Shown: positions 1 to 22,328 of the stretch, one piece after another
Layout of the letters: every line of letters begins with the position of its first letter
Numbering within the stretch: position 1 is the stretch's first letter
Virus record (IMG/VR): IMGVR_UViG_3300024259_000066
Coordinates: 1-43,690 of that record
Reading direction: 5' to 3' (one strand)
From: a virus
DNA length: 43,690 nucleotides
Program-made: the position numbers and the translations under genes
Notes under the pieces: model-generated
Seen by the model: only the letters and a program-made list of their open reading frames with translations
What the model was told of the DNA's origin: nothing
Databases searched by the model: none

Positions 1-19
1 CTGAACCTTCATCTGCCAT
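1..19 (-). CDS. 5' end of a gene running off the left edge
   Basis: Only the first six codons are inside the window (Met-Ala-Asp-Glu-Gly-Ser). The start is supported by a GAGG ribosome-binding site six bases upstream of the ATG at 19-17 and by the recurring promoter motif at 35-41. The product cannot be identified. It follows the gp26-like chaperone, so a baseplate or tail protein is likely by position only. Confidence 0.55.
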
Positions 20-34
20 GCCATACCTCTATAC

Positions 35-41
35 TAAATAT
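35..41 (-). promoter_or_regulatory. Candidate late promoter motif (ATATTTA)
   Basis: The sense strand reads ATATTTA 15 bases before the start codon of the partial gene at the left edge, with a GAGG ribosome-binding site between. It is one copy of the motif ATA(C/T/A)TTA found upstream of many genes here. The promoter role is inferred from position. Confidence 0.45.
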
Positions 42-54
42 GACTTCGAAAAAG

Positions 55-252
55 TTAGGTGAATCTACGTAACCTTGCCGGCACTTGTTCTCTCTGGCGT
101 CCCATTAATGCTCTTTGGTCTGGAGTGTTGTCAGACGCACTTTTTGATGTGTTGCTTGAATCAATCTCAGTAACAAACCTTTGTACAAACCATTTGCGTT
201 GCCAAATCGGCAAATTCATCGCGTCATGAAACGTAAAGCCCATGTAATACAT
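55..252 (-). CDS. Probable frameshift extension of the gp26-like tail chaperone
   Basis: As a separate ORF from the ATG at 252 this encodes 65 aa, but no ribosome-binding site precedes it. The same frame stays open upstream through 303 and reads as plausible protein (G-L-T-P-N-D-K-E-V-Y-L-E-P-I-F-A), overlapping the end of the preceding gene, which stops at 290. Just before that end the message has seven consecutive U at 310-304. A +1 or -2 slip there would join the 284-aa chaperone to this tail. The core N-L-P-I-W-Q-R-K-W-F resembles the small C-terminal module of tail assembly chaperones. Read this as the C-terminal part of a fusion rather than an independent gene. The slippage itself is inferred. 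Confidence 0.6.
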   Translation of the reverse strand: MYYMGFTFHDAMNLPIWQRKWFVQRFVTEIDSSNTSKSASDNTPDQRALMGRQREQVPARLRRFT

Positions 253-289
253 CAATGCAAATATAGGCTCGAGGTAGACCTCTTTATCG

Positions 290-1144
290 TTAGGCGTCAG
301 GCCAAAAAAACGAAGTGCCGATGGGCAGGTCTACCTCCGAAGACTCATAGCAACTTTCACAAGTCATAACGCACTTCATCTCGATGCCCGGCTCATTGTC
401 ATTCATGAACTTGCGAAGTGCCCGACTGTCTCGGGCTGGCATGTTATGCACAAACATTGCTAGCTTTGAACGGTCTTCGATGTTGTCAACGGCAACAACG
501 GCTGCCTGGAGCCGACTGGTCACCATGCTATCGAGATCACCCGACAACTTCTTCTTTCTTTTTCGCTCTGCCGTTAGTGCAATATTTTGCTCGTCGGCGC
601 CCGTTAGGAACCTGAACGTTACAACCTTCTTGCTGACTGGCAAAGTAAAGGTGAATTTGTTCTCGCCTGGTTCTGACGGTTCAATTTCGAGTCGCTTGAT
701 AGGAAGTTCTGCAAGACTGAATGACTGCTTTTGAGACACATCGCATTCTGGGCAAGGAATTTCGACCTCGTAATCAGAGCCGTACCCTGTAATCCTGACG
801 GCAACCATTAGCGCATTACGGTCTCCGGAGATAAGCTGATCAACCCGGACTGCTTTGTTTACCAGACATGAACGAAGAAGTGCCGTGATGACAGTGCCCT
901 TCTTGAGGAGAGCGCGACTGGTTAGAATATCCTCGTCCTTTGCCGTCATGGCCCGGATTTCAAGCGTTTCACAATTGTGCGCCGCCGAACCCTCTGGGTA
1001 GATTTTCCCCTGTGATGGCAGTGGTGCGGCATCAACTGGAATTTCCATTCCAAAATCTTCCCTCATCACATTTCTTGTCTGCATTCCACTAGCTTGCGCT
1101 CGCTGGGCATCGAAAACATGGTTCCCTTCTCTTTTGTTGCTCAC
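290..1144 (-). CDS. 26: gp26-like baseplate/tail assembly chaperone (T4_baseplate family)
   Basis: This 284-aa protein matches the T4 gp26-type family found in large T4-like phages. Visible hallmarks are P-L-P-S-Q-G-K-I-Y-P near residue 41, M-T-A-K-D-E-D-I-L near 66, a G-D-R-N-A-L segment near 107, and two Cys pairs, C131/C134 and C262/C265, that probably bind zinc. The start is GTG at 1144, chosen because AGGAG lies six bases upstream. The gene ends in a seven-U run followed by a short tail and UAA; the overlapping frame continues as the 55-252 extension. In T4 the family acts in baseplate hub assembly, and in other tailed phages analogous chaperones coat the tape measure. A hairpin (1168-1190) and a candidate promoter (1203-1209) lie upstream. 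Confidence 0.75.
   Translation of the reverse strand: MSNKREGNHVFDAQRAQASGMQTRNVMREDFGMEIPVDAAPLPSQGKIYPEGSAAHNCETLEIRAMTAKDEDILTSRALLKKGTVITALLRSCLVNKAVRVDQLISGDRNALMVAVRITGYGSDYEVEIPCPECDVSQKQSFSLAELPIKRLEIEPSEPGENKFTFTLPVSKKVVTFRFLTGADEQNIALTAERKRKKKLSGDLDSMVTSRLQAAVVAVDNIEDRSKLAMFVHNMPARDSRALRKFMNDNEPGIEMKCVMTCESCYESSEVDLPIGTSFFWPDA
304..310 (-). promoter_or_regulatory. Candidate slippery site, seven U in the message
   Basis: The minus-strand message reads UCG UUU UUU UGG CCU near the end of the gp26-like gene. A +1 or -2 shift on the U7 run moves ribosomes into the frame that continues to position 55. It is a homopolymer rather than the X-XXY-YYZ site typical of -1 shifts. The downstream frame is open and protein-like, which is the main support. 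Confidence 0.5.
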
Positions 1145-1167
1145 GTATCACTCCTGTAATTGTCACC

Positions 1168-1190
1168 TGCATACTGTAGTCCTGTATGCA
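1168..1190 (-). promoter_or_regulatory. 5' leader hairpin of the gp26-like gene
   Basis: A perfect 7-bp inverted repeat (TGCATAC / GTATGCA) with a 9-base loop lies between the candidate promoter at 1203-1209 and the ribosome-binding site of the gp26-like gene. It does not cover the ribosome-binding site and has no U-run after it, so a terminator is unlikely. It may stabilise the message. Confidence 0.4.
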
Positions 1191-1202
1191 CGCTTGTAAA
1201 CA

Positions 1203-1209
1203 TAAGTAT
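1203..1209 (-). promoter_or_regulatory. Candidate late promoter motif (ATACTTA)
   Basis: The sense strand reads ATACTTA 58 bases upstream of the GTG start of the gp26-like gene, in the gap after the 1232-2014 gene. It matches the recurring motif ATA(C/T/A)TTA. Confidence 0.45.
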
Positions 1210-1231
1210 AAGTGTGTGAAAGTCGTAGGAG

Positions 1232-2014
1232 TTAGTTTTCTGTGTCGTGTTTTATGTTATAAAATTCGTCTGCTGCGTTCCACAAAATATCTTCAAGCTC
1301 ATGACTTGGAATGCCCAACTTAACATCAATGTATTTTTCTAGTCTTTTAAATGATGAAATCATTGATTCAACGTCTGGTTTTTTGCCCGTAAGATGGTAT
1401 GATGAATCCAAAAAATTACCGAAGTTTTCTTTTCCAGGATTGTGTACGCGGGCGTCATCAGATTTTTGTGGGGTTATGGGTTTCTTTTTGTTATCTAGCG
1501 GCGTAGATTCAACGTCAGCGCGCTTGTTTTTGTAATATTTCCAGACGCGCTGAGCTGACGGTGATACACCAGGCTGCCTGTCTGGCATTAATTCACCTGT
1601 TTCCGCCATGGCTATATCATACATGAGCGGACCAAAATTTTTCGATGCGGCTGGGCCATGCACCATACTAGCACCATTGCTGTTACTTGACGCTTTTTCT
1701 ATATCAATCGTCCCCATAATGAATGATTCTGCATGTCCAGCCATTCCATCTGGAAGTATCCCGGCATGGTCGTCAAAATCGGCGAGAATGTCGCTGACTG
1801 ACACTTTACTTGCGCGGGCCATATCCTTAATTTCCTGAATTAGAAAATGTATAAACATACTCCTGTCAAAAAGAATGTACAGGATGTCGCCAGGTCCATC
1901 GCGATCCTTGTATACGGCTAACGCTAAATTGTCATTCGACGCCATTTTGGCGGTACGTGCTTTTTCTTGTAGGAGAGTTGTGCGGACGAAGGTCCTGATT
2001 GATGAGATGTTCAT
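1232..2014 (-). CDS. Conserved phage protein, function unknown
   Basis: This 260-aa protein has a recognisable central block, F-G-P-L-M-Y-D-I-A-M (about residues 127-136) followed by L-M-P-D-R and R-V-W-K-Y-Y. I recall this block from other large phages as a domain without known function. The N-terminus (M-N-I-S-S-I-R, then L-L-Q-E) loosely resembles the leader shared by the island proteins. There is no ribosome-binding site before the ATG, but ATAATTA ends exactly five bases upstream, which suggests a leaderless message. It lies between the HNH endonuclease and the gp26-like gene. A structural or internal virion protein is possible; the sequence does not decide. Confidence 0.6.
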   Translation of the reverse strand: MNISSIRTFVRTTLLQEKARTAKMASNDNLALAVYKDRDGPGDILYILFDRSMFIHFLIQEIKDMARASKVSVSDILADFDDHAGILPDGMAGHAESFIMGTIDIEKASSNSNGASMVHGPAASKNFGPLMYDIAMAETGELMPDRQPGVSPSAQRVWKYYKNKRADVESTPLDNKKKPITPQKSDDARVHNPGKENFGNFLDSSYHLTGKKPDVESMISSFKRLEKYIDVKLGIPSHELEDILWNAADEFYNIKHDTEN

Positions 2015-2019
2015 ATTAC

Positions 2020-2026
2020 TAATTAT
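2020..2026 (-). promoter_or_regulatory. Promoter-like motif 5 bases from the ATG (ATAATTA)
   Basis: ATAATTA, one base from the commoner ATACTTA/ATATTTA form, ends five bases before the ATG of the 1232-2014 gene, which lacks a ribosome-binding site. If transcription starts as at T4 late promoters, about six bases after the motif, the message would begin at the start codon. Confidence 0.35.
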
Positions 2027-2140
2027 CGTGCAGGATGGGTTCTGGACGTATCAATCACCAATGTGTATGTAGTATGTATTGAAATGATTCGGGAAGCACA
2101 CGGGATGAGGTGGGACTGTTAGGTGATTGACATGATTGAG

Positions 2141-2944
2141 CTAGTTGTCAAAGTTCAAAGATGGATGTTCGTGCCCGTGGCAAATCTTACATAGAACGAT
2201 TCCGGATACATTTTGTGACGTGTGGTAATCAATCACTTTTTCAACGATTATTCTATTTTGTTCTGGTGTCAAGACATGACAATCAACGTCACTGCGGAAC
2301 TTCTTGATTATCGCTGCCATTTTTTCTTTATCATGATGGATGTGCAATTTTGTTGTGCTTGAGCATCTTTCACACTTGAATTTTGCTGCGGCGAGCTTTG
2401 GAAATTTCCATTCGCTGTATAGTCGGTTATTTGAATGGCAAAGAGCACCGATTGTTGACGTTCCGCCTTTCCATTGCGGGTGTTCTGATCCTGTCAAAGA
2501 TGGAATAATACCGGCCAATCTATTTTTTGACATTATTTTGCTATACTTTTCTCGTTTTTCGGTTGTCCATGTTTTTGCGACCGATCTTCCGGCAATGCGG
2601 AGTCTTTCATCATCATGCTTCGTTATCCCTTTATTCCAGACAATCATTTCTCCAGATTTCAACATTTCCCGCCGGGAAGCCTGGCTTTTCTTTTGTGCGT
2701 TTTCATTGTGGCCCCAGTTATTTTTGATACGCGCTTGATGACCTGGGCAAAACTTTGAATATCCTTTTGTGATTCCATGGAATTTTGTCTTTGACATGCA
2801 ACCACAAGCACACGTAGGCTGTTTATGCTTGACAACTGCAGCCAGATATATTGCCTCGCTTGAAAGCTTATGCGCTTTTTGTGCATGAATACGCAATGAG
2901 TTAATTTTTTCAGTTTTGTAATTACAACTTGGACATAAAAACAT
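2141..2944 (-). CDS. HNH homing endonuclease with zinc finger and NUMOD3-like motif
   Basis: This 267-aa protein is a probable free-standing homing endonuclease. It starts with a C2H2 finger (C4, C7, H20, H25), then a C-A-C-G-C element at 45-49 also seen in the endonuclease at 22361-23356, then a NUMOD3-like element S-E-H-P-Q-W-K-G-G near 153-161. The HNH nuclease follows: C191/C194, the H-I-H-H-D core at 201-205 and C252/C255 near the C-terminus. It sits directly downstream of the tail tube gene, a typical essential-gene neighbour. Its ribosome-binding site and start codon lie in a 14-bp hairpin (2941-2988), so translation is probably restricted in read-through transcripts. Confidence 0.85.
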   Translation of the reverse strand: MFLCPSCNYKTEKINSLRIHAQKAHKLSSEAIYLAAVVKHKQPTCACGCMSKTKFHGITKGYSKFCPGHQARIKNNWGHNENAQKKSQASRREMLKSGEMIVWNKGITKHDDERLRIAGRSVAKTWTTEKREKYSKIMSKNRLAGIIPSLTGSEHPQWKGGTSTIGALCHSNNRLYSEWKFPKLAAAKFKCERCSSTTKLHIHHDKEKMAAIIKKFRSDVDCHVLTPEQNRIIVEKVIDYHTSQNVSGIVLCKICHGHEHPSLNFDN

Positions 2945-2988
2945 AGTCCCTCCCTATGACACTAGTATATCAATGGGAGGGACTATGT
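2941..2988 (-). terminator. 14-bp hairpin: tube-gene terminator and/or ribosome-site lock
   Basis: A perfect 14-bp inverted repeat (ACATAGTCCCTCCC / GGGAGGGACTATGT) encloses a 20-base loop. In the minus-strand message the 3' arm contains both the GGGAGG ribosome-binding site and the AUG of the HNH endonuclease, and it is followed by UUUUUA. It could therefore end transcripts of the upstream tube gene, block translation of the endonuclease, or both. The loop contains GATATACTAG, which could be a promoter giving an unlocked message. There is no T-run on the plus-strand side, so the terminator reading is directional. Confidence 0.7.
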
Positions 2989-3013
2989 AAAACCTCGTTA
3001 TCGTAACGTTACA

Positions 3014-3502
3014 TCAAAATTGAAGCACGGCGTTGTCATACCTGACCGTGAGTGCAATCTCTGATGCGTCTGACGTGCTGTAATCTAGTGCACCGAAATC
3101 AGCCGCTGTCAAGAATGCACCACGGATATCCCACAATTCAACGACTGTACCGACCGGATCAAGCATCTTCAACTGAATGTCGCGCTTGTAGAAGTCTGCG
3201 TAGCCTGCTCGACCTGAGACCGACTCGAAGTGTGTTCGAATCCATTCCATAACCTGCTGAGCGCCGGATGGAGCAATTGGGTCGTGAAGCGTAATCGATA
3301 GTGTTTCGAATGTTGCCTTGCCTGCCACATATCGTTTGTGATTGATATACGGAATTTCCAGCTCTTCAATCGCAATGTTTGGTCGCGAGGCAGTCTTCAC
3401 AATGAAGGCGTCGATGCCTTCAACAGCAAGGACCCACCTAAACTGACGTTTTGGCTCAAATTTATTCGGAAGCATGTCCGTTACTGATAGTGTTTCTGCC
3501 AT
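3014..3502 (-). CDS. 19: Tail tube protein, gp19-like
   Basis: At 162 aa this is almost the length of T4 gp19 (163 aa). It has the tube-protein pattern: a short N-terminal segment (P-N-K-F near residue 12), F-R-W-V-L-A-V-E-G-I-D-A-F-I-V-K, a central L-S-I-T-L-H-D-P-I-A-P-S-G followed by an amphipathic stretch, and a C-terminal beta strand A-L-T-V-R-Y-D-N-A-V. It polymerises into the inner tube through which DNA passes. AGGAG sits six bases before the ATG and a promoter-like ATACTTA lies at 3543-3549, so the gene probably has its own strong late promoter although it follows the sheath genes. Confidence 0.85.
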   Translation of the reverse strand: MAETLSVTDMLPNKFEPKRQFRWVLAVEGIDAFIVKTASRPNIAIEELEIPYINHKRYVAGKATFETLSITLHDPIAPSGAQQVMEWIRTHFESVSGRAGYADFYKRDIQLKMLDPVGTVVELWDIRGAFLTAADFGALDYSTSDASEIALTVRYDNAVLQF

Positions 3503-3542
3503 TTTAATCTCCTAAGACTGAGGCTTCGTTATGTTACAGGTC

Positions 3543-3549
3543 TAAGTAT
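3543..3549 (-). promoter_or_regulatory. Candidate late promoter motif (ATACTTA)
   Basis: ATACTTA on the sense strand lies 40 bases before the tail tube start, with the AGGAG ribosome-binding site between. Separate promotion of the tube gene fits its high copy number in the virion. Confidence 0.5.
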
Positions 3550-3556
3550 GGTAAAC

Positions 3557-4075
3557 CTAGAATCCCGACAACACAGCTTCCATTTTTTCTGCCATCTCGT
3601 CGTAATTGCTACTTCCGTTGGCACCCATGTTGACGACCTTTCTGCCGTTTACAATGATCCACCCGTTTCTGCCGTCAATTTTTATTTCTGCATCTGGGTA
3701 TCGGCGCTTGAATTTTGCCCTCAACGATTTTGCAGCAGACATTGATGCGGGACCTGCTTGGTTATAGCTTCGTTTGCGGGGCTTTCTGCCTGTCGGTGAG
3801 TAACCATAATTCTGATCGCGACCATAATTTTGTTCATTGACCTGTTTCGAAGGTGCCAGTCGATTCGTCATGATCCCATAAACGTCTCCGTTTCCAAAAT
3901 CTACGTCGGCCATGTCACCCATTTTGTGCATTTTCTTGACAGTGCCTTTCCTTGTTTTACCAAAGATCTCCGTTGTAACAATATCGCCTGGTTTTACTAC
4001 CTTTCCTACTGGTTTGGCACGCCATGGTGTGCTTTCTCGAATCAAGTTTCTAATTTGTCGTCGTGTGATTTTCAT
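3557..4075 (-). CDS. Leader-bearing protein with small beta-barrel-like segment
   Basis: This 172-aa protein begins with the shared leader M-K-I-T-R-R-Q-I-R-N-L-I-R-E followed by Ser, which fits cleavage by the gp21-type protease. The next part (V-K-P-G-D-I-V near 28, K-G-T-V-K-K-M, A-D-V-D-F-G-N-G-D near 56) has the glycine and valine spacing of a KOW or Tudor-like small barrel. The C-terminal half is basic (G-R-K-P-R-K-R) and ends in a short alpha/beta stretch with an N-G-W-I-I-V-N-G-R-K hairpin. It lies just after another leader-bearing gene, between the sheaths and the tube. I infer an internal head protein; nucleic-acid binding is possible. Confidence 0.65.
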   Translation of the reverse strand: MKITRRQIRNLIRESTPWRAKPVGKVVKPGDIVTTEIFGKTRKGTVKKMHKMGDMADVDFGNGDVYGIMTNRLAPSKQVNEQNYGRDQNYGYSPTGRKPRKRSYNQAGPASMSAAKSLRAKFKRRYPDAEIKIDGRNGWIIVNGRKVVNMGANGSSNYDEMAEKMEAVLSGF

Positions 4076-4078
4076 GGG

Positions 4079-4336
4079 TTACATCCACCTTTGTACTTTT
4101 CTATTGAGTACCTTCATCGCCTGATATTTGATTCCTGGTGCTCTAAAACCGCCGCCGATACGTTCAGCCTCATCGTCGATATACCTGATCAGTGAGTCAA
4201 TCTCTCTTTCAACGTTTGCCATAAGGTCGTCGCGCTCCTGGTCCTCATCATCAGAAACCGTGCCGTCCGCGTTCATCTCTGAGAGGATCTTCTCTTCATT
4301 GATAAGTCTTCGTAATTGTTTTTTTGTAATTTTCAC
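4079..4336 (-). CDS. Small leader-bearing protein
   Basis: This 85-aa protein starts with the shared leader (M-K-I-T-K-K-Q-L-R-R-L-I-N-E, then Glu). The start is GTG at 4336 with AGGA seven bases upstream. The body is acidic (D-G-T-V-S-D-D-E-D-Q-E-R-D-D) and then helical, ending in a basic tail. It overlaps no neighbour but is only nine bases from the sheath gene and three from the next leader-bearing gene, so all three are probably co-transcribed. The body has no recognisable domain. Confidence 0.6.
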   Translation of the reverse strand: MKITKKQLRRLINEEKILSEMNADGTVSDDEDQERDDLMANVEREIDSLIRYIDDEAERIGGGFRAPGIKYQAMKVLNRKVQRWM

Positions 4337-4345
4337 GTGCTATTC

Positions 4346-7300
4346 CTAGATATTGTTGCTTACCACGAAGTCAAGCGAGACGAACTCGATTGATTTTGTT
4401 GGCTGTAAGAAGATTTTACCGCGGATGGTGTTATTCTCAATGTCAGCCTGTGTCGTTGTCGACGCGTCAATCTTGACCTTGAATCTATCCAACCCACCTT
4501 GTGACTGGACGGCTGCCAAGATCGGTTGTACCCTCGCTTCAAATGATGCGATTGTAGATGCCTGGTTTGGCTCAAACAAGAATGTTCGTGCCACATCTCT
4601 GACCTTTCTACGAATGTCGATTAGCAAACGTCGTACGTTCACACGGTCGAGAGCGCTCTGTGCTGCAAGCAATGTTTTCTGGCCGAATACGGTTACTCCG
4701 GAATTTGCCTGGACGTCACCGATGATTGGGTTGACATCAGCGCTGTAAAGTGCATCACGATTTGCCTGTAGAAGCTCAACCGTTGGATACAATGCACTCT
4801 GCAAAGCACCTCGTGAGAAGCCTGCAGGTGCGAACCAAGGATGACCAATTGCATCATTCAGTGCCATGGCACCAAGAACAACAGCCGAAGACGGTGCTTT
4901 CACATTCGTCTTGGTTGCAACATCCTGAATTACCACGTCTGGGAAGTATGCTGCCGCAAACGATGAATCCAAAGCCCTCGATTGGAAAGCGTTGACCGTG
5001 TTCGTCACGCTGATTACCTGAGCTGATGATGTCACGAACGTGTTAACTTCGTCCTTTTCCTCGATGTCCATGACATACAATGCATCAAATCGTCGTTCGA
5101 CTGATTCGATTGCGTAGTCTGTAACAGATGAGTGACGAAGTCCAGGGATTGCCAACAACTGAATGTCAACATCCTGTTTTGCTTCCATCACGTCGACTGC
5201 TTTTCGCAACGCTGCAACGGTTGGTCCGTTCTTGCCGCCCTGCAAAGTCGAGTCATCCATCTCACGACGAACAGCCGTATCGGTGAATTTCGATTTCTCA
5301 GAGTCAAATACGTTGGTTCCGTCATATCCGCCCTGGAGTGGGAATGTGAACTTCAAGTATTTCTGGCTTGGAATGTGCGCAAAATCCTTAGTTGAATCCA
5401 AGAATCGAACGTTGGTCTTCGAAGTTCCGTCACGGTCATCAAGCGATGATGCCTGCGTTCCATTTCGGCGATACGAAGCAGCTGCCCACTGTTGTGGGTC
5501 TGGCCTGTCATTCGATCCAGTAATAACCTGCACCCTCTCAAGAGAGAAGAAGTTGTTGTTGAAACGGTCAGCGTCGAAAATCGTTCCGCCCACGTCAGCA
5601 GCTCCAGCATTATCACCGACTAGTGGGTTCTGCCAACTTGTGTGGAATTTCGGGTAATACCTTGTGAAGGATAGCAACGATGCATCCAGTTTTTCATTCT
5701 TGTTAGGAAGTGAAACGCTTGTCTTCGTTTCGAATTGGATTCCCCATGTGAATGACTGCTGGACGTTTTTCTTTGGTGAAGCACCGGTAGAGATCGACTC
5801 ACGCATTGGGATAGGAGGCTGAACAACCCGTTTGAGCAGATCAGATGAAATGCTGGCTGACATCGAACCTCGCAATGTGGCAAAGCTTCCTGTTAGGATT
5901 GAGCCTGCTGTTCCTGCGATTGTTGTGCCTGACGTAATCAAGTGATGAATTCCACGGAAACCTGTTGGCAATGCCGTTGGGTCCAATCGATCATTCTTCA
6001 AGTCGCTACTCAACGTCACTCGGACGTAGTTTGAAACGCTTGGGTAATCACCTTCGACAACGATCTTCTGGTTTCCAGTTGCTGCTTCGAAGTCGAAGTA
6101 TGTTCGCTGGTCACCGATTCGCTTTGCAATGTAGTTGTCAGACGACGGATCCAAACTCAAGCCTCTGAATGATTCCAGAACTGCTGGGTTCAAATCGTTG
6201 TCTGTGAAGCGTCGAATCAACACATCGAAAGTGCCGTACTTATTATTCGCCTTTGATGAAGCCGCGATGTTTTCAATCGTGACCTTGACTTCGCCTGCAC
6301 CGATGAGACCGTCAGACAATGTTGTTAGTCTGAACAAATCCTTGTTTGCGCCACCGAATTTCTGTGATACGACGAATGGACTGAATGCCGCCTCAAACCT
6401 GTCCTCGAAGTTCTCGAAGTTAGGTACACCAACGGTTGTTGCCGATGTTGCAGAACCTACGTCCCGGTTGAGTGTCGAAGTCAAAAGCAAAGCAACTGGC
6501 TCAAGATTTGTGAACCAGACTGTTGGGTTGATCACGCTTGTACCGGTCGCAACAGCAAGTGCTGGATCGATATCGTAGTGCGTATATAGATAATGCCCAG
6601 CATCTTCGATTTTCAATGGGTCTGTGTTGAGCACGTTTACGAAGTAGTTTGGAACGCTGGGGTCGAATGATGCCGTAACAACATTCTTGTATGTTGCGTT
6701 ATTTTTGTGACCGTTGAATAGGAGAACGAACTCCTGCTTCGAGTTACTAACATCGACGCTACCAATGTTTCCGCCAGCATTACCGACACCTGATCCGCCA
6801 AATGATGGATAAGCGGCTTCGTTTGCAGCCGGAGCCATGTTACCAGCAAGGTCAAGTGAGTGACTCAATGCCGGGATAACACCAGAAGGTGCCATTAGCA
6901 TACCACGGAGAATCGGAGTTGCGTTGACGTTCTTCTGGATGCCAGCGTCGCTAAGGTATGTTGAACCGTTTGACTCAGACATGATAGCTGCCAGCATGTA
7001 TGAACGGCCGAGCGCTCCACCTGGTAAGTTTTCAGCACCTGAATATGAGTTATCGCCGACGAGCCCGTTTGACTGGACAAGCCTATCACCAACAACAAAT
7101 CCTGCGTTGGTTACCTTGCCCTGGTTGTTACCCGTCGAGAGCCTTGCAGAACCGTCACCGGCACCAAGAACACGAACGAATACACCCGAATCGGCGTTCC
7201 TCAACCATTCACGCATTGCAATCGGTCCAAATTTTGTGCCGTCGCTATTCCCGAACGTTGAAATAAAGTCTTGAAATGTTGCCATAGTCACTGGGACGAA

Positions 7301-7429
7301 AGCAGGACCTCGTACTGACGTTCCTACAACACCTGCAGGAATTCCAGAGGGAGAAACCTGTGTGGGTCCTGAAAGGTCAATTTCATTCGCCACTACGCCC
7401 GGACTAACTGGAAAAGTGAATTCTGCCAT
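4346..7429 (-). CDS. 18: Tail sheath protein, first paralogue (gp18-like)
   Basis: This 1027-aa protein is a contractile tail sheath. The N-terminus (P-G-V-V-A-N-E-I-D-L-S-G, then G-I-P-A-G-V-V-G-T-S and G-P-A-F-V-P-V-T) and the C-terminus (F-G-Q-K-T-L-L-A-A-Q-S-A-L-D-R-V-N-V-R-R-L, later S-I-E-F-V-S-L-D-F-V-V) are the conserved polymerisation ends of gp18. T4 gp18 is 659 aa, so about 370 residues are added, presumably in surface domains between these ends. AGGAG precedes the ATG. It is immediately downstream of a second sheath gene with the same ends but a different middle. Contraction of the sheath drives the tube into the host. Confidence 0.9.
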   Translation of the reverse strand: MAEFTFPVSPGVVANEIDLSGPTQVSPSGIPAGVVGTSVRGPAFVPVTMATFQDFISTFGNSDGTKFGPIAMREWLRNADSGVFVRVLGAGDGSARLSTGNNQGKVTNAGFVVGDRLVQSNGLVGDNSYSGAENLPGGALGRSYMLAAIMSESNGSTYLSDAGIQKNVNATPILRGMLMAPSGVIPALSHSLDLAGNMAPAANEAAYPSFGGSGVGNAGGNIGSVDVSNSKQEFVLLFNGHKNNATYKNVVTASFDPSVPNYFVNVLNTDPLKIEDAGHYLYTHYDIDPALAVATGTSVINPTVWFTNLEPVALLLTSTLNRDVGSATSATTVGVPNFENFEDRFEAAFSPFVVSQKFGGANKDLFRLTTLSDGLIGAGEVKVTIENIAASSKANNKYGTFDVLIRRFTDNDLNPAVLESFRGLSLDPSSDNYIAKRIGDQRTYFDFEAATGNQKIVVEGDYPSVSNYVRVTLSSDLKNDRLDPTALPTGFRGIHHLITSGTTIAGTAGSILTGSFATLRGSMSASISSDLLKRVVQPPIPMRESISTGASPKKNVQQSFTWGIQFETKTSVSLPNKNEKLDASLLSFTRYYPKFHTSWQNPLVGDNAGAADVGGTIFDADRFNNNFFSLERVQVITGSNDRPDPQQWAAASYRRNGTQASSLDDRDGTSKTNVRFLDSTKDFAHIPSQKYLKFTFPLQGGYDGTNVFDSEKSKFTDTAVRREMDDSTLQGGKNGPTVAALRKAVDVMEAKQDVDIQLLAIPGLRHSSVTDYAIESVERRFDALYVMDIEEKDEVNTFVTSSAQVISVTNTVNAFQSRALDSSFAAAYFPDVVIQDVATKTNVKAPSSAVVLGAMALNDAIGHPWFAPAGFSRGALQSALYPTVELLQANRDALYSADVNPIIGDVQANSGVTVFGQKTLLAAQSALDRVNVRRLLIDIRRKVRDVARTFLFEPNQASTIASFEARVQPILAAVQSQGGLDRFKVKIDASTTTQADIENNTIRGKIFLQPTKSIEFVSLDFVVSNNI

Positions 7430-7455: not shown

Positions 7456-10400
7456 TTATTCAAAACTTACGCCATTGTTTGTAATAATGAAGTCAACCGA
7501 GATGAACTCAATCGCTCGGGTGGGCTTCACTTTGATTTGACCACGAAGTTTGTTCTGGTCAATTTCCGCCTTTGTGTTATTGCTTTCATCACAAATAACC
7601 TGGAATGCTTCGATTCCCTGTCGGGCTTGAACGTATGTCAGCTCACGGATTGAATCAGCAGAGAACTTCTTTCGAGTTGTCGCATCATTCTGTTCGAATG
7701 CAAGACCTTGCGCGATAGAACGAATCCTTCGCTTTACGTCAATCAACATCCTTCTTGTGTTGATTCTGTTTAGTGCCGTTTGTGCAACCTGTAGCGTTTT
7801 CTGGCCGAAGATTACGTAGCCTGATCGTGGGAACGTTGCGATTGGGTTGATTTTAGCATCGTATAGAGAATCCCTATCCTTTGCTGACAACCTATTCTCA
7901 ACGTTTTTCACGAAGCCTAGCGCTCCACGGTTGAAGCCTGCCGGAGCAAACCAAACCTGCTGGACACGGTCGTTGAAACCTAGTGCGCCCATTGCGGCAA
8001 CAGACGGTGGAACCTGAACGACCCGGTTATTCACCTTGTCCTCGATTGTAACATCTGGGAAGTATGTCGCGACGTAGTTGTTATCAATCGCACGTGTTTC
8101 GAACTGGTCAATTGTCTTTGTGACATCAGAATTTGCTTCAGAGTCGTCGTACAATCGGTTCGAGCTCTTGTCGAATTCCACAGCATCCATAACATACAAT
8201 GCAAGACCGTATTTCTTGACCGCATCTGAAGCATGGTCGGTTACGAATGGCTCTCTCACACCAGGGATTGCCAACAGGTTGATCCTTGATGAGATTGGGT
8301 TTGTGATGATGTCCACAGCGGTTCGAATCGATGCAACATTGTTGTTGAGTCGTCCGCCGCCCGCCTGGTTAGCAGTTCCGATTAGTGCAAGACCAATTCT
8401 GTCTGCGGCTCCGGGTGTTGGTTGTGCTTTACCGCCTGTGTCAGATGACAATGCTTTGTCACGGAAGTATCCTTGGTCTTCATCAAGGATGTTCGTTCCG
8501 TCAAATCCACCGTAGAACACGTTTGTGAACTTGTGGTACTCGGTGAAGCGATTGAACAGTGCCGATGATGTTGCGATCAACGACGCCATGGTGATTCGTC
8601 CTGTCCGTGCACCGTCAGTAACGGTGTATGTGGATGGGTTCGGACGACCATTTCGTACGTATGCAGCTTGGAGCATGTGCTCTCGGGCTGTGCCGGTGAC
8701 TTGCGTCGTGACATCAGAAAGCTGTGTTGCGGCATTATATAGGGCCACTCGTGCCAAGGTGAATTTGTTATCGTTGAAGAAGTCTGCACCGGAACCGGTT
8801 ACCAAACTGTCCATCTTCGAGATACCCTGGAACTTCGTGTATGTTCTAACAAGTGGGTTGATTCCTGCACCTTCATTTGAACGAAGGACCGCATCAGTGA
8901 TACCGAGTGTCGAATCGTTGCTTGATGAAACAGGCAGCGGATCAGTTTTGACGCCCCAGTATAGTCGACCGTCAACACGTTCTGTGCTGCCAGGATCGCC
9001 TAGGAATGTTGGGCTTATACCCTGGACTGCACCCTTCGTCACTTTCACTCGGAAAGGAAGAGGAGGTACGATAGAACCGGTGGTGGCCATAACTGATGTG
9101 CCTGATGTATGGTAAACACCAAGGCGACGCCTTGTTACATCACCAATTGTTTCTCCGTTGAGACCTGTAAGTGCCGTTGAGCTATCAGTCAGCGTATCAG
9201 TCGTCTTGATGACCGGAACTCCCCGGAAACCGAATGGCAACGAAGTTTTTGGAACCTTCTCCAACTCAACCTGCTCATTCATTACGATCCGAACACGCTG
9301 CGAAACGTTCGGGTATTTTCCTGTTACAACTAGGCGGCGCTCATCTGGTGATTCCTGGTCCCAATCAAATCGAACCTTTTTGTCGCCAATGAGGCGTGCA
9401 ACGTATCGCTCAGAGTTCGGGCCAAGTGAGCAGTTCGGGTACCTTTCCAGAATTGCTGAATTGCCGTCGCTGTCCTCGAATGATCTGATTTGCACCTCGA
9501 ACAAACCGTATGGTTGTTTTTCGTTTGTGCTTGCTCGCAGACCTGCAATCGAAACCTTGAATTTTTCGTTGGCGTAAACACCATCGTCAATTGTTTCAAA
9601 ACTGAACAAGTCATACTCAGCATCACCATATGGCTGTGAGATGAAATTCGTTGTTCGTGGAGTCTGGTATCGTGTATCATATCGACCGAATAGCTGCATA
9701 AACCCGACCGGAGTTCCGGCGGATGTGCTTTTGTTCGCTGAACCTGAAACCAACGCGACAGTTGGTACAACACTTGAAATCACAGGAGCAAGTGCATGCT
9801 CGACTGCGAAATCGAGGTAAAGCAGATGCTCTTCCTCTTGGAACTTGAGTGGATCTGTGTTCAGGACCTTGCCGATGTAGTTCGCGTCGTGGGGATCGAG
9901 TGAGGCGGTCAGAATTTTGATTCCGTCATAGCCTTCATCATACGCCCAGTCTTTTCCAGACGAAGAGCTAAGAATCAGTTTGAAATATTTGTTTTGTGTC
10001 AATGGGCTGGATGGAATTGAACCGACGAGTGCCGAGTTGTACCCGGGCGCAGACTGATCAGCGTAGGTTCCTGTATTGTCTAGCGCCATCATTCTTGTGC
10101 CAGTGGCGAGCAAAACTGCGCCCCGGACGAGGTTCATAGACGATGCATTGTTGATGCTGCTATTGTCAGTAAACATCGGGTAGCCATTTGTTTCATCGTT
10201 TGCAACAGCATCATGCCGCGCGACGATGAACTGGACAAGCCCTTGACTGCCAGGCAAATCAGTATTCAACGAATCGCTGCCTGTAATTCTAAATCCTGCA
10301 TTCTTGACAATTCCTGACCCGCGGGTGTTTGAAATATCGGTCGCAGTCTCATTTGCACCGGCACCGAGTAATCTCACATATGTAAGTGCTGTCCTATTGT

Positions 10401-10623
10401 CAAGCCACTGCTTAACAGCATATGGACCAAACCGCTTTGCGTTGAGTGTTCCAAATTTTGTTTCGAAATCAGCGAAAGATCCGACAGTAACCGGAACGAA
10501 TGCCGGTCCTTTCTCAGATGTGCCGACAACACCGGCTGGCACACCCGTTGGCGCAACCTGCTGACCTGATAGGTCTATTTCCTGGTCGAAAAATCCAGGA
10601 GATCGAAATGTTTGCTCAGCCAT
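7456..10623 (-). CDS. 18: Tail sheath protein, second paralogue (gp18-like)
   Basis: This 1055-aa protein is a second complete sheath. It shares with its neighbour the N-terminal E-I-D-L-S-G, G-V-P-A-G-V-V-G-T-S, G-P-A-F-V-P-V-T and F-G-P blocks and the C-terminal F-G-Q-K-T-L-Q-V-A-Q-T-A-L-N-R-I-N-T-R-R block. The middle domains differ clearly. Both copies look intact, so neither is an evident pseudogene. The two could form a mixed sheath, or one could serve a specialised zone of the tail. A promoter-like ATACTTA at 10664-10670 precedes it and it probably starts a transcript that also covers the downstream sheath gene. Confidence 0.9.
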   Translation of the reverse strand: MAEQTFRSPGFFDQEIDLSGQQVAPTGVPAGVVGTSEKGPAFVPVTVGSFADFETKFGTLNAKRFGPYAVKQWLDNRTALTYVRLLGAGANETATDISNTRGSGIVKNAGFRITGSDSLNTDLPGSQGLVQFIVARHDAVANDETNGYPMFTDNSSINNASSMNLVRGAVLLATGTRMMALDNTGTYADQSAPGYNSALVGSIPSSPLTQNKYFKLILSSSSGKDWAYDEGYDGIKILTASLDPHDANYIGKVLNTDPLKFQEEEHLLYLDFAVEHALAPVISSVVPTVALVSGSANKSTSAGTPVGFMQLFGRYDTRYQTPRTTNFISQPYGDAEYDLFSFETIDDGVYANEKFKVSIAGLRASTNEKQPYGLFEVQIRSFEDSDGNSAILERYPNCSLGPNSERYVARLIGDKKVRFDWDQESPDERRLVVTGKYPNVSQRVRIVMNEQVELEKVPKTSLPFGFRGVPVIKTTDTLTDSSTALTGLNGETIGDVTRRRLGVYHTSGTSVMATTGSIVPPLPFRVKVTKGAVQGISPTFLGDPGSTERVDGRLYWGVKTDPLPVSSSNDSTLGITDAVLRSNEGAGINPLVRTYTKFQGISKMDSLVTGSGADFFNDNKFTLARVALYNAATQLSDVTTQVTGTAREHMLQAAYVRNGRPNPSTYTVTDGARTGRITMASLIATSSALFNRFTEYHKFTNVFYGGFDGTNILDEDQGYFRDKALSSDTGGKAQPTPGAADRIGLALIGTANQAGGGRLNNNVASIRTAVDIITNPISSRINLLAIPGVREPFVTDHASDAVKKYGLALYVMDAVEFDKSSNRLYDDSEANSDVTKTIDQFETRAIDNNYVATYFPDVTIEDKVNNRVVQVPPSVAAMGALGFNDRVQQVWFAPAGFNRGALGFVKNVENRLSAKDRDSLYDAKINPIATFPRSGYVIFGQKTLQVAQTALNRINTRRMLIDVKRRIRSIAQGLAFEQNDATTRKKFSADSIRELTYVQARQGIEAFQVICDESNNTKAEIDQNKLRGQIKVKPTRAIEFISVDFIITNNGVSFE

Positions 10624-16627: not shown

Positions 16628-17588
16628 CCAATTGGCACCAACGCTCTGTCAATAGATTCCCATCACGCTCAGCAGATTCTTTCTGTGGGCTTAATGGGCT
16701 TTTGATATTGATTTCAGCGTTCTGCAGCTTGTCATAAATCGCTGCCTTTCCAGCTTTACCGCCAATTGATTTGTCGTCAAGTTGGGGCATATCCTCTCGG
16801 GCGGGCGCTTTCGTGTTGCTTGGCACAGTTGCCAGGTTTGCCGAAATCTTCTTGATGATTTTCACGATCACTTCTTTAGGATCAGCACCTGGTTTGAAGC
16901 CTGCCCATTTTGCAATGGTCTTATCTTTTGATGAGTTCGAAACCATTTCATCGTTTAGCATTGGGCCGGGGGCTCGACGGTCTACCTGGCGTCCCACATT
17001 TGCTGCCATCATCTTTTCAATTTCGCTCGATGACTTGCCCAGAATGTTGTTTGCGATCTTTCCTGATGCTGTTGGCATATCCTGGTTTGGATCTTTGTGT
17101 GCTGCGATGGCAAGTTGAGCTGCGGCGAGTTTCTGGGTTGTGTCTCCAGGAAGCTCTAAATCTTCGGCGCTGATTACACCATCCGGTCCACTGATTGCCC
17201 ATACACCTGACCATCTATGGTGCCCATCGATCACATCATCGCCTGATACGGTAATTGAGCCGGGAGCGTCTGTTGTGTTTGAGGAGATTGCTTTTGCAAG
17301 AGCCTTTGCACTTCCCAATGGAAACGCCGCCGACTTCATCATGTCAATTTCTTTCTGTGTAGGTTTGAAATCCCGAATTTGTCTCATTGCTGGTTTTGAC
17401 ACTTTCGTCGTGTCGTCCGCTTTGACATTGTCGTGAGTGCCATGAAGGGCAGCCTTCAACTCATCCGGGTCAGGATGGTTGTCTACGAACGATCGTACTG
17501 CACCGGGTCCACCCTTGGCAGCCTTGGCAATATCGTCAGTCACATCCTCAAAAAGGACATCAACAAGTTTTGGATAACGATATGCCAT
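16617..17588 (-). CDS. ParB/sulfiredoxin-like domain protein
   Basis: This 323-aa protein contains D-D-V-I-D-G-H-H-R-W-S-G-V-W-A-I (about 117-132), the G-x-H-R signature of the ParB N-terminal/sulfiredoxin fold, which hydrolyses nucleotides or acts as a nuclease in different members. C-terminal to it are A-P-A-R-E-D-M-P-Q-L-D and a Lys-rich end. I recall the same core in other large-phage proteins that carry the M-K-I-T leader. Here the N-terminus is different (Y-P-K-L-V-D-V-L-F-E-D), though L-F-E is a possible protease site. The start overlaps the stop of the upstream leader-bearing gene, so translation is probably coupled. Activity and substrate are unknown. Confidence 0.6.
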   Translation of the reverse strand: MAYRYPKLVDVLFEDVTDDIAKAAKGGPGAVRSFVDNHPDPDELKAALHGTHDNVKADDTTKVSKPAMRQIRDFKPTQKEIDMMKSAAFPLGSAKALAKAISSNTTDAPGSITVSGDDVIDGHHRWSGVWAISGPDGVISAEDLELPGDTTQKLAAAQLAIAAHKDPNQDMPTASGKIANNILGKSSSEIEKMMAANVGRQVDRRAPGPMLNDEMVSNSSKDKTIAKWAGFKPGADPKEVIVKIIKKISANLATVPSNTKAPAREDMPQLDDKSIGGKAGKAAIYDKLQNAEINIKSPLSPQKESAERDGNLLTERWCQLAKC

Positions 17589-17902
17589 TAGTAATGCGAG
17601 TACCGTTTTGTTTCAATTGCCCTTAGCTCCCTGGCAAGGGTAAGATAACCTAGCGTATCTGCTGGCCCCGCGACTACTTCTAGCAAGGCAAGTTCAGCGA
17701 ATTCGCCACCCTCATCATCACCCAACTCATCAGCCGCATCGGCCATTACAATTTCAAGAAAATTCTCAACCTGATATTCAAGTGCAGATCGTGTTTCAAT
17801 GGGGGTGTGCATGGCTAGCGCTCGTTTGCCGACGCGTCCTTCGCTCATTTTTGATTTTTCTTTACGGATTGCTTTCCGTAATTGGTTTTCTGTTATTTTC
17901 AT
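17588..17902 (-). CDS. Leader-bearing acidic protein
   Basis: The 104-aa product starts with the shared leader (M-K-I-T-E-N-Q-L-R-K-A-I-R-K-E). The (I/V)-x-E site is shifted here: E is at 15, and M-S-E/G at 19-21 is a second possible cut. I use the ATG at 17902, where the leader begins and AGGTATC lies just upstream, not the longer frame from 17941. The body is acidic and helical (A-A-D-E-L-G-D-D-E-G-G-E-F-A-E-L). It is followed with overlap by the ParB-like gene and preceded by another leader-bearing gene. Confidence 0.6.
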   Translation of the reverse strand: MKITENQLRKAIRKEKSKMSEGRVGKRALAMHTPIETRSALEYQVENFLEIVMADAADELGDDEGGEFAELALLEVVAGPADTLGYLTLARELRAIETKRYSHY

Positions 17903-17976
17903 GATACCTGTGTCCTTTCCTGTACGCCCTAAACACGCCATTGGTAGGTTACCTAAGCGTAATGTAAAGAAGCTGC

Positions 17977-18216
17977 CTAGTATGCATCGTGTGATTGCTC
18001 GTATCCATCATCCCGAACTTGCTGCAGGGCGTATCTGAATTCTTCTTCTATGTCGGAATATGACAGACCGGTCGACAGTCCGCCCGTAATCAATGTTTTT
18101 AGATCTTCCGCAAAGAAGTTGCTTGTTTGAAAACGACCATCTGGACTTTTCATTTCTGCCAGTTTTGATTTTTCGTGGCGGATAACATTACGTAGCTGGT
18201 TTTCTGTAATCTTCAT
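17977..18216 (-). CDS. Small leader-bearing protein
   Basis: A 79-aa protein with the shared leader (M-K-I-T-E-N-Q-L-R-N-V-I-R-H-E) followed by K-S-K-L-A-E, a likely cleavage site. The remainder is helical and acidic with Y-S-D-I-E-E-E-F-R-Y. GGAG precedes the ATG and ATATTTA lies at 18238-18244, so it is probably the first gene of a transcript that includes 17588-17902 and the ParB-like gene. Confidence 0.6.
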   Translation of the reverse strand: MKITENQLRNVIRHEKSKLAEMKSPDGRFQTSNFFAEDLKTLITGGLSTGLSYSDIEEEFRYALQQVRDDGYEQSHDAY

Positions 18217-20403: not shown

Positions 20404-20757
20404 TTATGTTACGAAATCTAAGTGGGTGTATTTCCTGGGTGCACGCTTATTTAGCATCCCCTTACCTGCGTTTGCTGCCATGAACTGAACGAATTCTTCT
20501 TTCGTTCCCGGGCTGTCATTGTGGCTAAAATCGATGTTCATTAAGCTTTCATCAGCGTAATCTTCTGATGGGAAACGGGCCGGCGGGGAAACCCTTACAT
20601 ATGACTTGTATGGTTTGTAGCCCATCGTCTTCAAATCTTCCGGTGTCAGCGTTTCCATCCAGAGTTCACCAGACATAAACCTGAGCCAGGCCTCCGTTTT
20701 GTTTCCACCTAAGGATTCCCGAATGAGATGCCTGAGTTTGGATTCTGTGATTTTCAT
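20404..20757 (-). CDS. Leader-bearing protein
   Basis: A 117-aa protein with the leader M-K-I-T-E-S-K-L-R-H-L-I-R-E followed by Ser. The start is the ATG at 20757, which overlaps the upstream stop as ATGA; the longer frame from 20841 ignores this. The body has no known domain (L-T-P-E-D-L-K-T-M-G-Y-K, later K-E-E-F-V-Q-F-M-A-A-N-A-G-K-G). It is the last gene of an ATGA-coupled run of five leader-bearing genes. Confidence 0.6.
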   Translation of the reverse strand: MKITESKLRHLIRESLGGNKTEAWLRFMSGELWMETLTPEDLKTMGYKPYKSYVRVSPPARFPSEDYADESLMNIDFSHNDSPGTKEEFVQFMAANAGKGMLNKRAPRKYTHLDFVT

Positions 20758-20996
20758 TCGTAATCCTGGTACACCGTGTTTTGGCTTTGTTGGCCGTCTC
20801 TTCGTCTGCCGGCCACAGATCGACGAACTGCTTGAATACATTTATCAACAATCGTCGCGGCCTGATAGTGTCCTGCTTCTTCTAGTTTCCATATTGCACT
20901 GCCGAGACTTTGTATCGCCTCACTAACTAGTCGAGCTTTTTCGTTTGAGGAGGTTTCTTTTACCAGCTTCCTGAGTTGAGATTCTGTGATTTTCAT
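20754..20996 (-). CDS. Small leader-bearing protein
   Basis: An 80-aa protein with the leader M-K-I-T-E-S-Q-L-R-K-L-V-K-E followed by Thr. The body is one long helical region (A-I-Q-S-L-G-S-A-I-W-K-L-E-E-A) and a basic segment (V-R-R-S-V-A-G-R-R-R). ATGA overlaps with the genes on both sides indicate coupled translation. The C-terminal charge would suit contact with packaged DNA, but that is a guess. Confidence 0.6.
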   Translation of the reverse strand: MKITESQLRKLVKETSSNEKARLVSEAIQSLGSAIWKLEEAGHYQAATIVDKCIQAVRRSVAGRRRDGQQSQNTVYQDYE

Positions 20997-21472
20997 TGAT
21001 GCCTACCTTTGTATTTTCTTGTCGCTACAACCGGTTCTGCAAATGTAAGGACTGTCTCATACGTCGTTCTATTCCCAGAAAAGCGAGCCAATGACCAAGA
21101 ATTGCCGGAGGAATCCGTCCATGTATGTTTCGATTTAGTCCAGTTTCCGGCGGGATGATGGTCATCCGAAGCACCTGAGTGTTTGAAACCTAACGCCTCC
21201 ATCGCTTCCACCAGTTGCCAGTCAAAGAAATTCCGCAGTGTCTTCGACCATGAAACACGGGTCGCCATTCCAGGAACAGTGTCATCAACATCAGTCGATC
21301 GTCCGTTTCCTCCAGGGATTCCCGCTTTGATCGCAGCGAGCTGTTTTTCCGTTACTTCCAAACGCGTACGACTATTAAAACTGTCAGAAACAGTGATGTA
21401 CCTCTTTCGCGATGATTGCTCAGATAGCAGCTTCTTCACGACAATTTTTAGTTGTGATTCGGTGATTTTCAT
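20993..21472 (-). CDS. Leader-bearing protein
   Basis: This 159-aa protein begins M-K-I-T-E-S-Q-L-K-I-V-V-K-K-L-L-S-E; the likely cut is after L-S-E at 18 rather than at 14. The body has a region around residues 80-140 rich in Trp, Ser and His (F-F-D-W-Q-L-V-E-A-M, D-D-H-H-P-A-G-N-W) and a last stretch of beta character. I recognise no family. Both ends overlap neighbours as ATGA. Confidence 0.6.
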   Translation of the reverse strand: MKITESQLKIVVKKLLSEQSSRKRYITVSDSFNSRTRLEVTEKQLAAIKAGIPGGNGRSTDVDDTVPGMATRVSWSKTLRNFFDWQLVEAMEALGFKHSGASDDHHPAGNWTKSKHTWTDSSGNSWSLARFSGNRTTYETVLTFAEPVVATRKYKGRHQ

Positions 21473-21711
21473 TGTGACCTTCCTATCAGGGTCAGGGCAA
21501 TCGCCCGAATGACAGGCAGCTTCCCAACTTGTTCACCGTGTGTCGCGAGCTCTTTCGCAATTGCTTGACAAAACTCTTTCTTTCCCAACAGGCTTTCGAT
21601 GGCTTTTTGTTCGTCTGGGCCTAACTGATTGAATAGCTGTTCTGCCCGATCGGTTTTGCCTTCAGCTTGCTCTCGGATTAGTTTCCTGAGCTGTGTTTCT
21701 GTGATTTTCAT
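21469..21711 (-). CDS. Small leader-bearing protein
   Basis: An 80-aa protein with the leader M-K-I-T-E-T-Q-L-R-K-L-I-R-E followed by Gln. The rest is helical (A-E-Q-L-F-N-Q-L-G-P-D-E-Q-K-A-I) and ends in a hydrophobic stretch (V-I-R-A-I-A-L-T-L-I). It is too short for confident domain recognition. ATGA-type overlaps link it to 20993-21472 and 21708-21923. Confidence 0.6.
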   Translation of the reverse strand: MKITETQLRKLIREQAEGKTDRAEQLFNQLGPDEQKAIESLLGKKEFCQAIAKELATHGEQVGKLPVIRAIALTLIGRSQ

Positions 21712-21923
21712 TGGTTCTCCACCGCGGTGTCGATCGCACTACGAACAGCATCGGCTCCGATTTCATGACCGATGGAAGCCAGAATAACCTCGGCGCGCTT
21801 TAGGAACTCCAGTGCCCTGTCCATCTCATGATCCCAAGTGAAATCTGATGTTTCATTTTGGCCCCAGTCTGAGACGTGCGATTCTTTTATCAGTTTTCTG
21901 AGTTCTGATTCTGTGATTTTCAT
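21708..21923 (-). CDS. Small leader-bearing protein, first of the coupled run
   Basis: A 71-aa acidic protein with the leader M-K-I-T-E-S-E-L-R-K-L-I-K-E followed by Ser. The body is helical (M-D-R-A-L-E-F-L-K-R-A-E-V-I-L-A). It opens the run of five ATGA-coupled leader-bearing genes, and candidate promoter motifs lie 22 and 50 bases upstream. Confidence 0.6.
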   Translation of the reverse strand: MKITESELRKLIKESHVSDWGQNETSDFTWDHEMDRALEFLKRAEVILASIGHEIGADAVRSAIDTAVENQ

Positions 21924-21945
21924 TTGTGCCTCGTATATGTATCAC

Positions 21946-21980
21946 TAAATATCTAATTGCACCCGAAATTACATAAATAT
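21946..21980 (-). promoter_or_regulatory. Two candidate promoter motifs and a TATAAT element
   Basis: Within the 153-base gap 21924-22076, the sense strand carries ATATTTA at 21952-21946 and again at 21980-21974, and TATAAT overlaps the second copy (21984-21979). The gap therefore probably holds the promoter for the five-gene run, possibly for two phases of infection. The remainder of the gap is the hairpin at 22017-22048. Confidence 0.45.
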
Positions 21981-22016
21981 TATACCACACATACACGAAT
22001 ATTACATGCCAAAGAC

Positions 22017-22048
22017 GAAGGGCTCCCAGATTTCTCCAGGAGCCCTTC
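22017..22048 (-). terminator. Strong hairpin, probable terminator
   Basis: A perfect 10-bp stem (GAAGGGCTCC / GGAGCCCTTC) with a 12-base loop lies 29 bases after the stop of the 22077-22328 gene. The U-run after it in the minus direction is weak (CGTCTTTGG). It would separate that gene from the five-gene run downstream. Confidence 0.55.
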
Positions 22049-22076
22049 AAACGTTTAGCTAACCGAAGCTAGCCAG

Positions 22077-22328
22077 TCACACAGACATTGGGTCATCAAG
22101 ATCGAGACCCTCAGCATTGTAGTCCATCCAGTACAAATCAGAATCGTCGGCCTCAGACTGAATGTAGTTCATTATCTCATCCTTGCTATGACCTGTTTCA
22201 TGTTCCGCTTCGGCCCATGGGATTATGCCTGGTGATGGCGCGAGATTGTGGAGCGTTATCCAGAGATCACGACGCGAATGTTTTTGCTCTCTGATGAGTT
22301 TCCTGAGATTTGATTTTGTGATTTTCAT
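22077..22328 (-). CDS. Small leader-bearing protein
   Basis: An 83-aa protein with the leader M-K-I-T-K-S-N-L-R-K-L-I-R-E followed by Gln. The body carries W-A-E-A-E-H-E-T-G-H-S-K-D-E-I and a very acidic C-terminus (D-L-D-D-P-M). GGGG precedes the ATG by six bases, ATAATTA at 22350-22356 may be its promoter, and a hairpin follows it, so it may be an independent transcript. Confidence 0.6.
   Translation of the reverse strand: MKITKSNLRKLIREQKHSRRDLWITLHNLAPSPGIIPWAEAEHETGHSKDEIMNYIQSEADDSDLYWMDYNAEGLDLDDPMSV

Follow-up and report, generated by a model that had tools for sequence, protein, structure and literature searches.

The window analysed here, 43,690 nucleotides of marine phage DNA at full length, carries tail genes in the order sheath, tube, chaperone and tape measure, an order shared with cultured relatives (Table 1). 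The chaperone gene sits between the tail tube and tape measure genes, with two extra genes between tube and chaperone. An ORF in that interval (2141-2944), which shows a weak zinc-finger match and an HNH-like C-terminus, may encode a homing endonuclease that entered the tail operon. The sheath gene is directly adjacent to a paralogue (7456-10623), and both products are very long (1027 and 1055 aa). About ten small, otherwise different ORFs (3557-4336, 17588-18216 and 20404-22328) share the N-terminal tag MKIT(E/K)xQLRxLIRE. Positions 1-4000 gave no Rfam match and, as the window contains no tRNA genes, nothing in this fragment points to a phage-borne tRNA-Phe or tRNA-Trp.

Table 1. Features of the tail chaperone locus and neighbouring tail genes
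Feature	Position	Strand	Basis or detail
Short tail assembly chaperone (TAC-N / gp26-like), 284 aa	290..1144	(-)	GTG start; TAA stop 292-290
Frameshift block TTT TTT TGG CCT (0-frame codons)	299..310	(-)	Near-invariance in relatives and DNA-only search
Putative P-site codon UUU, tRNA-Phe slip +1	305..307	(-)	Base 304 (U) skipped, GGC (303-301) next
T domain, +1 frame, 82 aa, giving a predicted 362-aa fusion with the chaperone	55..303	(-)	Stop TAA 57-55
Next gene, start only	1..19	(-)	Sequence and continuation in relative L002 (tape-measure-like there, open frame of at least 909 aa)
Tail tube protein (gp19-like), upstream of the chaperone	3014..3502	(-)	phrog_4542 E 3.6e-30; PF06841 23.7 bits
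Tail sheath protein	4346..7429	(-)	PF04984 and PF17482 over cut-off

The 284-aa ORF ends in ATC GGC ACT TCG TTT TTT TGG CCT GAC GCC TAA and thus stops five codons past a run of seven U (310-304, minus strand). The +1 frame is open from 5' of this run to the stop of the T domain, reads FFGLTPNDKEVYLEPIFALMYYMGFTFHDAMNLPIWQRKWFVQRF... and includes NLPIWQRKWF. Re-reading of the minus strand confirmed what the earlier note had described, namely a chaperone ending just past the U7 run and a second frame with NLPIWQRKWF that stays open to position 55.

The 284-aa protein belongs to the Pfam family T4_baseplate (PF12322; 61.6 bits, curated cut-off 24.5) and matches phrog_150 'baseplate hub' (E 6.6e-21). 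An AlphaFold2 model built from 43 relatives reached a pLDDT of 88 and covers the chaperone domain only, a single-sequence model of the fused protein having a pLDDT of 34. VIA-align comparison of the confident model with 459 re-aligned solved chains returned YqbN (3klu; Z 6.2, 79 aligned) and the tail assembly chaperone (TAC) of HK97 (2ob9; Z 5.4, 82 aligned) ahead of the next chain at 3.4, values that, being below 8, are modest when taken alone. YqbN is a tail assembly chaperone of the XkdN type. Foldseek of the same model against the PDB gave no hit significant by E-value, so that the TAC match comes from VIA-align, and sequence searches of solved structures with either domain returned nothing credible. 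Among predicted viral structures, gp26-type proteins come closest, the one of SP-15 for example. As modelled, the first domain is a protein of the tail-assembly-chaperone fold.

Taken alone, the T domain of the window matches phrog_634 'baseplate hub assembly catalyst' (gp51) weakly (E 0.11). A profile of the T domains of 33 relatives aligned by hhalign to a gp51 T-part profile, composed of the T parts of cyanophage-type phages and the C-terminus of T4 gp51, with an E-value of 2.1e-6 over 56 columns. The chaperone-domain profiles of the window-type and the T4/cyanophage-type groups also match each other (E 1.5e-9). Judged by these profiles, the second domain and the C-terminal part of T4 gp51 are homologues. 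DUF6760, a Pfam domain of unknown function, gave a weak match in 22 of the 33 aligned T domains (best E 1.9e-4).

Among 80 IMG/VR loci fetched with the first protein as query, the T frame is +1 in all but one of those with an intact junction. Clustering at 85% identity left 55 clusters, or 54 once the odd locus L071 was set aside. Across these 54 relatives, which are less than 85% identical, TTYTTTTGGCCT is essentially invariant, wobble bases included; only the wobble base of the first Phe codon (T in 46/54) and one C (53/54) vary. The codon periodicity of conservation follows frame 0 upstream of the block and the +1 frame downstream, and the change falls exactly at the block. The putative P-site codon is TTT in all 55 clusters, compared to 79% TTT among the Phe codons of the gene, a uniformity with a probability of 0.79^55 or about 2e-6 if clusters are taken as independent. 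The preceding Phe codon is TTT in 47/55 and TTC in 8/55. The Pro codon of the block is CCT in 53/55 clusters versus 23% elsewhere, a preference to be expected if its last two bases serve at the same time as the beginning of a +1 Leu codon.

Selection on the region past the block acts in the shifted frame: codons 5-30 counted from the slip show a pN/pS of 0.15 in the +1 frame versus 1.58 and 1.35 in the other frames of the same bases. When the downstream sequence was shuffled, a frame of 57 codons, the length of the shortest T frame in the 54 relatives, stayed open in only 1% of cases. The T domain might nevertheless be made as a separate small protein, by initiation of its own or coupled to the chaperone stop, the overlap being incidental. 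Public records, where they annotate the T domain at all, show a separate protein, and in one relative (L292) an ATG lies directly past the chaperone stop (TAGAAATG) and the overlap is closed. In the window itself, the first starts of the +1 frame, TTG 255 and ATG 252, come 16-17 codons past the slip point and, as the earlier note had observed for the ATG, lack a Shine-Dalgarno sequence at a distance of 5-18 nt; AAGAGG at 284-279, about 26 nt upstream, is too distant. In 13 relatives whose first 15 codons in the +1 frame include no ATG, GTG or TTG, pN/pS between the frame-0 stop and codon 15 is 0.22 (24 pairs). Purifying selection ahead of any start codon means that separate initiation does not account for the data, and it would also leave the invariant TTT wobble base and CCT unexplained; we consider it quite improbable.

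The earlier note had worded the shift as +1 or, equivalently, -2, and only the +1 part is borne out. A -2 shift at U7 as in phage Mu would reach the same frame, and the window does have seven U. However, relatives reading TTC TTT TGG (8/55 clusters and the L281-L294 group) keep only U4, where UUU re-pairs perfectly at +1 (UUUU) and not at -2 (UCU), and the direction is thus +1. Sites of the immuto type (TTT CTA TGG) are likewise compatible only with a move from UUU to UUC at +1, which makes the -2 alternative very improbable. Distant cultured phages stay +1, most with UUU-C: immuto has AGC TTT CTT TGG, GXN1 TTC TTT CGT, SP-15 TTT TTT CAC and LuckySocke CTG TTT CAG. The tRNA-Phe with its GAA anticodon is able to re-pair on UUC. 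An in-frame TTT-Y occurs within the overlap in 156 of 156 +1 loci, against a background of 0.5% per codon. The junction proposed as the slip element is therefore kept in relatives, but its essential part is UUU-U-GG, or UUU-Y in distant relatives, and not the U7 run as such. Transcriptional slippage, for which a homopolymer of seven in the window would speak, is hardly credible, since the +1 arrangement persists with four U (TTC relatives) or with three U and a C (immuto, LuckySocke and GXN1 types) and runs of four U or fewer make this mechanism implausible. An error in sequencing or assembly that broke up a single gene, where U6 in place of U7 would fuse the frames, is practically negligible, since 156 loci share this frame relation, among them those of the cultured, finished phages SP-15, LIS04, immuto and Mel-JY01, and none of 232 relatives is fused in frame.

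The reading that remains is that a single gene very probably yields two tail assembly chaperones, a pair of the lambda G/GT type, by a +1 frameshift at UUU-U-GG. The programmed frameshift proposed in the earlier note for the gp26-like tail chaperone is strongly supported by the near-invariant block, the frame change of selection and the homology of the T domain; the overlap, the direction of the shift and the predicted TAC fold complete this sequence-based evidence. Most ribosomes would stay in frame 0 and stop to give the 284-aa short form. Others would stall ahead of the UGG Trp codon while tRNA-Phe occupies UUU (307-305) in the P site; the tRNA would then re-pair one base 3' on the overlapping UUU, and reading would go on with GGC CUG ACG... 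to produce the 362-aa fusion. Slippage of this kind in cells, how often it happens and the role of UGG as the pause are inferred. By analogy with lambda G and GT, the short form may coat the tape measure protein and the fusion may recruit tail tube subunits.

Elements that could stimulate the shift were searched for on both sides of the site. Downstream, no conserved RNA structure was found (mean z -0.04 over 27 relatives; -1.9 for the window itself); upstream, there is no conserved Shine-Dalgarno element and wobble positions are not conserved. With neither element conserved, no stimulator of above-noise slippage is visible besides UGG. The second frame being +1, the junction does not correspond to a canonical -1 site X XXY YYZ. 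It resembles RF2 (prfB), Listeria phage PSA and HSTV-2 (PMC5009743) in the +1 slip of a single P-site tRNA. In RF2, however, the slip codon is CUU, followed by UGA and accompanied by a Shine-Dalgarno element further 5', and in PSA it is CCC, whereas the window has the sense codon UGG in the A site. The RF2-type combination of an A-site stop with a Shine-Dalgarno element about 3 nt upstream is thus absent here, where the A-site codon is UGG and upstream wobble positions vary.

The arrangement is recognizable from DNA alone. A scan of 2.9 million viral contigs with TTYTTTTGGCCTRARYRRTRA, a 21-base pattern built on the 12-base block, matched at least 80 loci; in 79 of the 80 listed, the frame-0 chaperone precedes the pattern and the T domain is read in +1. 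Applied to existing annotations, such a pattern would put right those that lack the T part or list it as a gene of its own. In the records of cultured +1 phages, it is missing in GXN1 and LIS04, shortened in immuto and SP-15, and a separate hypothetical protein in Mel-JY01.

Frameshifting between G and T parts is conserved except in T4, and HSTV-2 very likely uses a +1 shift (Atkins et al., 2016; PMC5009743). The likeness of the window to lambda G/GT lies in the arrangement, with a short and a frameshifted long form, a T domain in the shifted, overlapping frame and a position before the tape measure gene; lambda shifts -1 (PMC5009743), whereas the window shifts +1 on UUU-U-GG. The gp26/gp51 proteins of T4 and cyanophages belong to the same family PF12322 and have a homologous T domain. 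However, T4 and CP220 have two full PF12322 genes each, and in P-SSM2, HTVC008M, Cr30 and phiM12 the T part lies in the -1 frame at U UUU UUY, in contrast to the one gene and +1 shift of the window. The TAC of Vandenendeviridae and Andersonviridae (PMC12846349) also represents a conserved myovirus frameshift with a downstream part mis-annotated as a separate gene, but shifts -1 at GTTTTT. The earlier note had named no described case for the gp26-type family, yet that context is not empty: T4-like tail assembly chaperones were described by Vladimirov et al. (2022), as cited in passages of two later papers (PMC10885494; PMC12846349), with two full genes in T4. According to the passage on PRFect, some T4-like phages have a short and a fused long copy instead (PMC10885494), and the other passage gives poly-T -1 signals in T4-like TAC-N genes (PMC12846349). 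Set against Vladimirov et al. as these citing papers present it, the +1 form, its breadth and its motif look new for T4-like TACs.

A family-wide picture was obtained with a T-domain profile applied to 232 loci. The T domain occupied another, overlapping frame, +1 in 156 and called -1 in 74, was never in frame and was undetected in two; these loci are part of the relatives fetched and the -1 loci came from the P-SSM2 query, so that the +1/-1 shares mirror the queries, not nature. The -1 loci are mostly of the cyanophage type (AGT TTT TTC). By eye, RM378 looks +1 and Vi01 -1. A starred branch sets the T4-like group apart in a quick tree of 83 chaperone domains. The inner order of the T4 part, in which long branches come together, is unsure, and the tree needs at least four +1/-1 changes, two of which rest on hand-read exceptions (L071 and L292).

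In L071 (3755-3800), 4 nt are duplicated in tandem past the slip site, which puts the T domain in -1 behind U8; a -1 slip on U UUU UUU could reach this frame. In the LR756511 huge-phage group (L089, L301-L303), the site is -1 at GGT TTT TTC TTC and the frame-0 tail past it is much longer, which looks like a genuine switch to -1. A stand-alone second gene, named beforehand as the observation that would speak against frameshifting, was found in L292 only (1/232), besides T4 and CP220 with their duplicated gene. In this 187.8 kb contig (near position 2200), the start of the T ORF just past the chaperone stop means either that the frameshift was lost naturally or that the contig is in error; it indicates that the T domain can be expressed separately.

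The tail chaperones of T4-related phages very probably shift in more than one direction, and the +1 site is kept in well over 100 related viruses. T4 has long been the named exception to tail-chaperone frameshifting (PMC5009743), and gp26/gp51 relatives provide close comparison cases; as these keep +1 or -1, the replacement of a frameshift by gene duplication becomes directly traceable. On balance we favour the broader view of a widespread, unreported +1 shift at a sense codon (UUU-Y, mostly UUU UGG) that apparently lacks both an RNA-structure and a Shine-Dalgarno stimulator. The shift would be conserved among phages that infect cyanobacteria, Bacteroidota, Firmicutes and Actinobacteria, in one chaperone family that has switched between +1, -1 and gene duplication. 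The UUU-U-GG site is suited to mechanistic work, being a natural, widely conserved case of a +1 shift on a sense codon.

The cyanophage-type loci (L121-L200, L099) have their -1 site U UUU UUC about 20 nt before the chaperone stop. Of 47 distinct sequences, 41 carry GGAGG 10 nt or GAGGG 9 nt ahead of this site, a spacing that resembles that of the dnaX Shine-Dalgarno stimulator, although part of the pattern may be due to conserved Glu-Gly codons.
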